Positions 62,616-63,852 of a stretch of DNA of 64,000 nucleotides are shown here, in pieces. The stretch is from Chthoniobacter flavus. Its GTDB lineage: Bacteria > Verrucomicrobiota > Verrucomicrobiia > Chthoniobacterales > JACTMZ01. The notes below the pieces were generated by a model. That model had not been told where the DNA came from. It searched no databases and was given only the letters and a program-made list of their open reading frames with translations. The DNA lies in NCBI GenBank assembly GCA_945878135.1, contig CAMDUL010000001.1:147670-211669 (forward strand), in the 5' to 3' direction. Both the position numbers and the translations under genes were made by a program. Each line of letters starts with the position of its first letter. The stretch's first letter is position 1.

Positions 62616-62687
62616 GACCCTATCGTCCAGCGGTTAGGACACCGCCCTTTCACGGCGGTAACACGGGTTCGAATCCCGTTAGGGTCG
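62616..62687 (+). tRNA. tRNA-Glu (anticodon UUC)
   Basis: All arms fold: acceptor GACCCTA/TAGGGTC, D-stem GTCC/GGAC, anticodon stem CCGCC/GGCGG with loop CTTTCAC (anticodon TTC), and T-stem ACGGG/CCCGT with loop TTCGAAT. Total 72 bases with discriminator G; CCA is not encoded. The 3' end is repeated 149 bp downstream. Confidence 0.95.
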
Positions 62688-62820
62688 CTCGCCTTGGCCA
62701 GCGACCCGCAAGCCTCTCCTCCGCCGCAGGCGCATGAATGGAAAGATGGCGCGGCCATCAGCCAAGCGAAGCGCGACAGATCGACCGCAGGTCGACCCCA
62801 GGGTGAGGCGCAGCCGAATC

Positions 62821-62838
62821 AATCCCGTTAGGGTCGCT
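62821..62838 (+). repeat. Second copy of the tRNA-Glu 3' end (att-like)
   Basis: AATCCCGTTAGGGTCGCT is an exact 18-bp copy of 62672-62689, the T-arm and acceptor end of tRNA-Glu plus two bases. It is followed by TTTTCTTTTTG, which looks like the tRNA's former terminator. This is the usual mark of site-specific integration into a tRNA gene. Confidence 0.75.
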
Positions 62839-62910
62839 TTTCTTTTTGAGGGCAATCCCCCCTTAAACCCGCACAAATACAGGCTTCGCGGGCGTTTGCT
62901 GAAATCGGCG

Positions 62911-62987
62911 GAGTTGGCCGAAGTTGGCGGAAGTTTGTCAAGAAACGTCAAGAAAATGGCAGCCGAATGGCACTAAAATGGCACTAA
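62911..62987. repeat. Tandem 10/11-bp repeats beside the att-like site
   Basis: Consecutive units: GAGTTGGCCG, AAGTTGGCGG, AAGTTTGTCA, AGAAACGTCA, then AATGGCAGCCG and AATGGCACTAA twice (62955-62987). Repeat length is close to one DNA turn. Such iteron-like rows are found as arm sites of tyrosine recombinases or as replication/regulatory iterons. The 314-bp stretch 62839-63152 holds only this row and a terminator hairpin; its ORFs look spurious. Confidence 0.6.
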
Positions 62988-63004
62988 CGGAGGCGGGCTT
63001 TGTT

Positions 63005-63033
63005 ACCGCCCAAAGGCGGCGGTGGCCTTTTTC
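63005..63033 (+). terminator. Likely intrinsic terminator
   Basis: Stem ACCGCC/GGCGGT with 7-base loop CAAAGGC, followed by GGCC and TTTTTC. It reads on the plus strand, downstream of the tandem repeats and upstream of the low-GC gene. Confidence 0.45.
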
Positions 63034-63152
63034 TTGCCCTCCCCTCGCCTCGGGTGCATCACCCGCCATCCCTGCCGCCCTCGAGTTCATCGGTGCGGAC
63101 ATGCCCTTTCCAGTCCATTGACCGTGCGAGGATTGCTGCTAAACCAATAACC

Positions 63153-63653
63153 ATGAATCTACCTAAAGCACCGTCCCTTATCATCACCGCTCTTGCTCTG
63201 CTCACGTTCCACGCTTCGGCGGTGGAGTATGTGACTCTGCGCCCAGAAACAGGGGCCGTTAACCTTAATCCATTGGACGTGGTCGAAATTGTATCCGAAC
63301 AGGTATCTTATAATGCTGGCAATGGCGCTTACACCTATCGCGTTAATTTAGACATGACGTTTGAGGGAGGCCACACATCAAACATCTCAACCGGACGTGG
63401 TAGCGTCTACACTTCGCTTGTGCAGATTGCATCCACCAACGGTGCGGTAACGATAAAAATCACCCGCGCCAACGAAGTCAATGCCGTGCAGCCCACTTCA
63501 GTTTTAGTCATCCCCGAAAACGCCACAGGCAACTACGACATCGTAGTCGAAACCAGTGACGATACTGCTACTTGGACGCCGTTCCACTCGCAGACAATCT
63601 TGGCGACCGACCCCAAAAGGTTTTTTCGGACTAGGATTGTAAGGCGAGATTAG
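63153..63653 (+). CDS. Secreted hypothetical protein, low GC
   Basis: A 166-residue protein with a signal peptide (LIITALALLTFHASAVEY). The mature part is beta-rich with Asn/Thr (NAGNGAYTYRVNLDMTF, NISTGRGSVYTSLVQIAS). By counting two 60-base lines its GC is about 42-50%, far below the rest of the window. It lies just beyond the duplicated tRNA end, which fits a transferred gene. No family recognised. Confidence 0.7.
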   Translation: MNLPKAPSLIITALALLTFHASAVEYVTLRPETGAVNLNPLDVVEIVSEQVSYNAGNGAYTYRVNLDMTFEGGHTSNISTGRGSVYTSLVQIASTNGAVTIKITRANEVNAVQPTSVLVIPENATGNYDIVVETSDDTATWTPFHSQTILATDPKRFFRTRIVRRD

Positions 63654-63852
63654 GCGGCGACTGTTGGCCTTTGGGGCTCACAAAAACCCCCGCAGGCGCA
63701 GACAGCGGAGCATCCATAAAAGCGCTTCCTGCGCCAACCTCGCGCAAAGTTTTCGCACCCTGCGGATGCCGCTTGAGGTAAACACTGACACTCTGCCTCG
63801 TGATGCCGAGCAGGCGAGCCGCCTGCGATTGCGTAGCCTTGCACTCGCGCAC
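63631..63852 (-). CDS. Putative helix-turn-helix protein, possibly frameshifted
   Basis: A 73-residue frame starting at GTG. Its N-terminus KATQSQAARLLGITRQSVSVYLKRH is a good helix-turn-helix (Fis/excisionase-like). The preceding frame on the same strand (to 63911) reads AAMRLDVRLMLEIMG, which could be the missing first helix in another frame, so a frameshift or pseudogene is possible. It overlaps the convergent low-GC gene by 23 bp. The rest of the window to 64000 shows nothing clear. Confidence 0.4.
   Translation of the reverse strand: MRECKATQSQAARLLGITRQSVSVYLKRHPQGAKTLREVGAGSAFMDAPLSAPAGVFVSPKGQQSPPNLALQS

Follow-up and report, generated by a model that had tools for sequence, protein, structure and literature searches.

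The question raised by this locus is whether a duplicated tRNA 3' end marks the border of an integrated element. Near the right end of the 64,000-nucleotide stretch of DNA analysed here (the window), the last part of a tRNA-Glu gene is repeated a short distance downstream and followed by rows of short direct repeats. The initial annotation interpreted this arrangement as an att site with recombinase arm sites, at the edge of an element running past the window. The closest public relatives of the window's genome are Chthoniobacterales MAGs, and we therefore infer that the genome is Verrucomicrobial and belongs to the order Chthoniobacterales. The duplication involves three features:

62616-62688, + strand: tRNA-Glu(TTC) gene with T-loop TTCGAATCC, predicted by ARAGORN
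62672-62689, + strand: proximal 18-bp copy, the 3' end of the functional tRNA-Glu from the A of the T-loop on
62821-62838, + strand: distal 18-bp copy of the tRNA-Glu 3' end, with a right flank common to the relative G004

tRNA-Glu(TTC) is the sole tRNA gene in the window. The sequence AATCCCGTTAGGGTCGCT, comprising the last 17 bases of this tRNA and the next base, occurs exactly at 62672-62689 and 62821-62838 with a start-to-start spacing of 149 bp, so that ARAGORN and the mismatch search confirmed the exact downstream copy reported in the initial annotation; the T-rich sequence said to come after it is also present, behind the distal copy. No further occurrence was detected within 3 mismatches in the window, where 0.06 would be expected, and a third copy was absent elsewhere in the 2.64-Mb genome assembly (incomplete) within 2 mismatches. 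Given this expectation and only two copies genome-wide, a chance repeat was rejected as the source of the duplication. The window ends where the contig ends, which limits the sequence right of the distal copy to ~1.2 kb.

Similar duplications are found at other tRNA genes. For a census of the window's genome (G000), tRNA genes were taken from RF00005 positions and the segment from T-loop to 3' end was sought 700 bp downstream and upstream. Hairpin-type units, one to three in tandem, lie behind 9 of the 41 tRNA genes (Ala-CGC, Asn-GTT, Gln-CTG, Glu-TTC, Ser-CGA, Ser-TGA, Ser-GCT, Tyr-GTA and Ser-GGA, the last with a decayed tRNA-end copy); tRNA-Gly-CCC, whose T-loop was not found and for which a 7-base tail was used, was not scorable. 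No upstream tRNA-end copy was detected within 700 bp of any scored tRNA in this genome. All nine unit-bearing tRNAs have the T-loop TTCGAATCC, and all are among the 17 tRNAs with an AATCC T-loop, compared to 0 of the 24 others (p = 7e-5; classes counted by hand). No integrase accompanies the units at the eight other tRNAs.

The initial annotation had proposed a comparison with related genomes. Units at tRNA-Glu were found there in G002, G005, G009, G016, G037, G084 and others, with spacings of 123-149 bp and no integrase; they number three in G037 (123-bp), two in G084, one in G009 and one or more in G005 and G016, up to three units in all, and in tandem arrays the tRNA end is present two to four times. 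In G041, the unit behind tRNA-Ser(CGA) copies the 3' end of tRNA-Ser itself. Orthologous tRNA-Tyr units are kept in G010 and G001, and tRNA-Ser(GGA) units in G000 and G010 with compensating hairpin changes, while unit copy number and even presence differ between relatives. The two att-like copies in the window enclose only 131 bp, of a type also found at other tRNAs, and do not delimit an element. With like units following other tRNAs without an integrase, the claim that the duplication is the edge of an integrated element was not upheld; in our judgement, it is probably best explained as a small tRNA-tail unit. In the literature reached, which included few subscription papers, we found no description of tRNA-tail repeats, rtT or GIY-YIG genes at tRNA genes in Verrucomicrobia.

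The spacers of these units consist of small hairpins in series, many of them closed by GNA loops, and fall into two recurrent kinds: A spacers, which contain ..GGGATGAGAACGCAGTTCGAGCCGAGCGCAGCGAGACAG.. and often close in ..TCAATCC, and B spacers, which read ..GGAAAGGTCGCCGCAGGCGACCAATCC. Each unit closes with a copy of its tRNA's own 3' end, and this copy starts with the AATCC of the T-loop. The copied T-strand of A units can pair with the strand that precedes GATGAGAAC, and the latter strand varies with the tRNA, being GGTGGGAT with Ser-TGA, GGAGGGAT with Ser-GGA and AGGGGAT with Ala. Over 15 units, which include orthologous or tandem copies and are thus not all independent, the spacer T-stem strand paired over a mean of 6.0 bases compared to 4.9 when permuted, and 0 of 10000 permutations were as good. 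The tRNA's own five-base T-stem strand was present in the spacer of 10 of 37 units, versus 6.6% for the strands of other tRNAs, and folding predictions for several sibling units contain the outer stem. The own T-stem strand in the spacers indicates that, in many sibling units, the distal copy consists of a whole T-arm and the acceptor strand, with a series of hairpins placed within the T-loop.

An Rfam search of the unit loci pointed to RtT (RF00391), the repeat RNA of E. coli tyrT, of which K-12 has four annotated copies at tyrT/tyrV. The RtT model finds matches in 6 of the 57 relatives, and E. coli is the only one of 14 control genomes to match; the matches examined (G000, G005, G008, G010 and G041) are tail units. 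Scores were 45.8 bits for G008, 42.9 for G005, 42.3 for G041, 39.8 for G016, 37.0 for G010 and 33.4 for tRNA-Ser(CGA) of G000. Among the scored siblings G008 alone exceeds the Rfam gathering cut-off of 45 bits, and the tRNA in front of its matching unit is truncated at the start of the contig. Beyond the layout, the alignment contains common sequence (GGAUGAGAA, GUUCGAG.CGAGCGAAGCGAGA and CCCGAAGGG) and the outer stem to the copied tRNA end. A 67-base core consensus, hand-made mainly from Verrucomicrobial copies with one base as in E. coli, finds the E. coli RtT sRNA loci at ~81% identity, and 1916 E. coli genomes match. Judged by the same architecture and partly the same sequence, the tail-unit family is related to the E. 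coli RtT repeats.

Within the window, the spacer has the following parts:

62690-62820, + strand: hairpin-rich spacer of the putative tail unit, 131 bp
62702-62749, + strand: 5' part of the spacer, resembling B units found in G002 and G005 (75-79% identity)
62760-62820, + strand: RtT-like A core forming the 3' part of the spacer; identity 89% to the tRNA-Glu unit of G005 and 80% to the tRNA-Ser unit of G041

GNA-triloop hairpins at 62722-62732, 62781-62795 and 62807-62815 make the spacer the site of the window's densest cluster, and its 3' half, the only portion in common with the RtT-type siblings, matches a hand-made core consensus at 93% over 68 of the consensus's 85 positions. The spacer is composite, B-like on its left side and A-like on its right. 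As a whole it folds no better than shuffles, as DNA or as RNA; the window copy gave no match to the Rfam RtT model at E up to 10, and it has no T-stem mimic and no outer stem. It does lie behind a tRNA gene and close with a copy of that gene's 3' end, the position in which RtT is found. Because the model does not recognise it and the outer stem is absent, we call the window copy RtT-like and rearranged, not an RtT member. Positions 62690-62838 are probably a tRNA-tail unit of the family that the census located at nine of the 41 tRNA genes.

Integration must nevertheless be weighed at this gene, since in this order the evidence supports tRNA-Glu as a hot spot of tyrosine-integrase elements. In G004, G018 and G032 an integrase gene lies just behind tRNA-Glu, and in G018 and G032, where the integrase adjoins the tRNA, a distal copy of the tRNA 3' end is located 9.3-9.4 kb away. 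The 149-bp unit might accordingly be the scar of such an element, with the tRNA and the second copy as attL and attR and the interior deleted to 131 bp, a reading that fits both these widely spaced duplications and the arm-like rows adjoining the second copy. We consider it very unlikely. The spacers have a conserved hairpin core across families and several tRNA identities, whereas neither common sequence nor a match to RtT would be expected of random scars, so this explanation is largely refuted; it also leaves the tandem arrays of two to four tRNA-end copies unaccounted for. In G002, moreover, an intervening segment of ~4.7 kb separates tRNA-Glu from the tail units, and because the units lie beyond it, units and integrase elements are separate things. 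On the shared core, the tandem units and the separation in G002, an integrase element was rejected as the cause of the 149-bp duplication.

The sequence to the right of the tail unit calls for a different reading. It contains:

62868-62892, no strand assigned: hairpin CCCGCACAAATACAGGCTTCGCGGG, with counterparts in relatives behind tRNA-Val, tRNA-His and tRNA-Glu genes
62912-62987, no strand assigned: three rows of 10/11-bp direct repeats (TRF), read as putative arm-type sites; region 82% identical in G004
63153-63653, + strand: 166-aa ORF with the lowest GC in the window and a signal-peptide-like start
63631-63852, - strand: HTH-containing ORF fragment, with weak Pfam HTH matches below cut-offs

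TRF bore out the 10-bp and 11-bp tandem repeats of the initial annotation, with period 10 at 62912-62935 and 62937-62955 and period 11 at 62966-62987, and none of 200 shuffles of 62912-62987 (0/200) matched the repeat quality of the real rows. Direct repeats of 11-bp period (TCCCTGACAAGTCCCTGACAAA and others) lie between tRNA-Glu and the integrase in G004, G018 and G032, and a like layout with periods of 10-11 bp occurs behind other tRNAs of relatives. The window thus has arm-like direct repeats near an att-like site, laid out as in these three integrase-bearing genomes, and since the rows fit the class seen beside integrases in relatives, it is reasonable by likeness of layout to read them as putative binding sites, the arm-type sites of a tyrosine integrase. 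Of the proposed att site with arm sites, then, the arm-like rows stood, matching repeats beside real integrases, and the role of the 149-bp duplication as an element edge did not. No integrase was detected between the second copy and the end of the contig, a stretch of 1.2 kb; elsewhere the genome has two strong integrase matches and one short sub-threshold match, none on the window's contig.

To the right of the second copy, the flanking sequence can be aligned with G004 at 82% over 208 bp, and the region 62843-63040 is 82% identical to G004 DNA that follows a displaced tRNA-end copy. In G004 the shared flank comes after a bare tRNA-end copy, on a contig other than that carrying the tRNA and integrase, and leads into a D-alanyl-D-alanine carboxypeptidase-like, host-like gene (identity read from translation). 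We read 62843-63040 as the probable remains of an older integrase element at the tRNA-Glu hot spot, to which the low-GC gene at 63153-63653 could also belong; the rows would then be separate remains of that element's arm sites. This gene has a GC content of 50.7% compared to 65.6% for the window, below all 254 sliding 501-bp windows, and the initial description of a gene with clearly lower GC and a signal peptide agrees with these values and with its signal-peptide-like start, while no Pfam family was matched above cut-off. The HTH fragment described alongside it held up as an ORF fragment, its HTH assignment less so, the Pfam matches being weak and sub-cut-off.

Whatever the origin of the 149-bp unit, the second copy may instead serve as att site for an element that starts with the rows and passes the contig end, as the initial annotation proposed. 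The rows resemble those beside the integrases of G004, G018 and G032, GC drops sharply after them, and the contig breaks ~1 kb further on. Against this stand the lack of an integrase in the remaining DNA and the course of the G004 flank, which runs into the carboxypeptidase-like gene so that, at least there, only a remnant is left. We regard an element passing the contig end as a tentative possibility.

Several observations concern the surroundings of tRNA 3' ends more generally. Hairpins of the CCCGC-AnnAATACAGGCTTC-GCGGG type (window 62868-62892; L128, L131, L145 and L129) lie right behind tRNA 3' ends in several relatives. Direct repeats of 10/11 bp come next, and in most cases no integrase is close by; hairpin and repeats are possibly a common att-side module. 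The window's genome has an 11-bp repeat pair (GGTGACAAAATGGTGACAAATG) behind tRNA-Met (G000:C28, L251), where no integrase was seen.

The RtT-type core also occurs away from tRNA genes. Across 388 genomes of the phylum, the 20-base signature of its first hairpin was found 42 times, distributed over 13 genomes, compared to once for a reversed control pattern. Dispersed copies close in ..CAA, and several are inside genes: in frame in leuS of G041, twice in tandem in an hsdM-like gene and once in an hsdR-like gene (gene names from translations; leuS also by Pfam). The list of cores contains paired changes, from G..C to A..T at the ends and from G-C to C-G inside the first hairpin. We give about equal weight for and against the proposition that RtT, instead of being peculiar to enterobacterial tyrT, is one face of a widespread mobile hairpin element, placed in frame in genes and in the T-loop of duplicated tRNA 3' ends, where it matches its tRNA.

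Cores of this type were further observed in apparent IS transposase genes (L196, L198, L207 and L208), often at GAA^AA and in one IS twice; several have an in-frame TAG and others are read through, and translational bypass was considered. The 20-base signature is carried by 35 IMG/VR contigs (L348-L382) that are viral by label, and the core is nearly absent from annotated phages. As a candidate mobiliser, the Y1 (RAYT-like) transposase was rejected: no core lies near 30 Y1 loci, and several unit-bearing genomes have no Y1 match. Y1 (RAYT-like) domains do occur in frame in ~1100-aa aminoacyl-tRNA synthetase ORFs, namely leuS (L408, L410 and L203), alaS (L412) and valS (L421), flanked by REP-like coded peptides (gene names from translations); for L203, Pfam confirms the leuS editing domain and Y1_Tnp.

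A different family at tRNA genes is represented by small GIY-YIG nucleases, which looks like a mobile element targeting the 3' ends of RNA genes. These ORFs (L289-L317 in genomes of the order; G000:C8, L286; G000:C34, L283) usually come after a structured leader, GCCTTCGCT..AGCGAAGGCTGCCACGCCGTAG..CTACGGCTTGGCA..GCCAGCC. The tail units could be homing elements of such nucleases, as their non-autonomous forms behind tRNA and tmRNA genes. A tRNA or tmRNA lies upstream on the same strand at 25 of 29 GIY-YIG relatives (22 by ARAGORN, 3 by tmRNA 3' ends), mostly within 100-250 bp, compared to 0 of 9 UvrC controls, and in G000 a GIY-YIG ORF and then a 29-bp copy of the tRNA's 3' end come after tRNA-Lys(-TTT), with a like arrangement at tRNA-Pro in G002. 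Yet a downstream 3'-end copy is present at only 3 of 28 GIY-YIG loci, and the leader conserved among these loci is unlike the RtT-type core. Homing was rejected as the general mechanism, the positional link being strong and the 3'-end copy rare, and we consider it unlikely for the units.

The history that we propose for the tail units begins with a tRNA carrying the T-loop TTCGAATCC, the 3' part of which would have been duplicated together with, or before, the arrival of a mobile RtT-type hairpin core in the extra T-loop. The core presumably inserts at GAA-type sites, T-loops included, and the arrays would then grow, shrink and recombine, with the window unit arising as a chimera of two unit types that lost its outer stem. 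The units are probably co-transcribed with their tRNA as 3' trailers, and may be processed as RNAs.

Selection might also keep the units, as processed regulatory RNAs or decoy att sites, which would be compatible with this origin. The outer stem tracks tRNA identity, orthologous units are kept at tRNA-Tyr (G010/G001) and, with compensating changes, at tRNA-Ser(GGA) (G000/G010), and E. coli rtT is a processed RNA according to the record annotation. Since copy number and even presence vary between relatives and the window copy lost its outer stem, we think a selected function rather doubtful.

Two implications follow. First, a duplicated tRNA 3' end alone is no proof of an integrated island. Second, what is known is RtT at E. 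coli tyrT and what is new is a wider range of RtT-like tRNA-tail repeats, in another phylum. The E. coli rtT repeats have hitherto been, to our knowledge, a single-locus curiosity with no known origin; related units behind many tRNAs of another phylum, together with free-standing cores, open the origin and function of RtT to comparison and experiment.

Compared with tyrosine-integrase islands at tRNA 3' ends, the locus uses the same tRNA-Glu segment, from T-loop to 3' end, and has arm-like rows, but it differs in having no integrase up to the contig end, a 131-bp interior, and tandem units with a core common to different tRNAs. Like Rickettsia palindromic elements (RPE), which with similar elements are in-frame palindromes in genes, the ~60-bp hairpin cores lie in frame inside genes (a likeness by description only), whereas here one core also builds tRNA tails. 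REP elements with RAYT (Y1) transposases are likewise short hairpin repeats, and Y1 transposases occur in many of these genomes; unlike REP elements, the RtT-type core is absent from the vicinity of all 30 Y1 transposase loci. RtT (RF00391) itself comes closest. It lies behind a tRNA on the same strand, closes with a copy of that tRNA's 3' end and forms tandem copies, and it shares the core GTTCGAG.CGAGCGAAGCGAGA..CCCGAAGGG.GAGGCG and, with sibling units, the apparent outer stem between T-stem mimic and copied T-strand. The Verrucomicrobial units are shorter and more variable, the window copy is rearranged and unrecognised by the Rfam model, and copies of the core are also scattered through genomes at places without a tRNA; whereas RtT in E. 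coli is tied to tRNA-Tyr, the units here lie behind nine tRNA genes of one genome.
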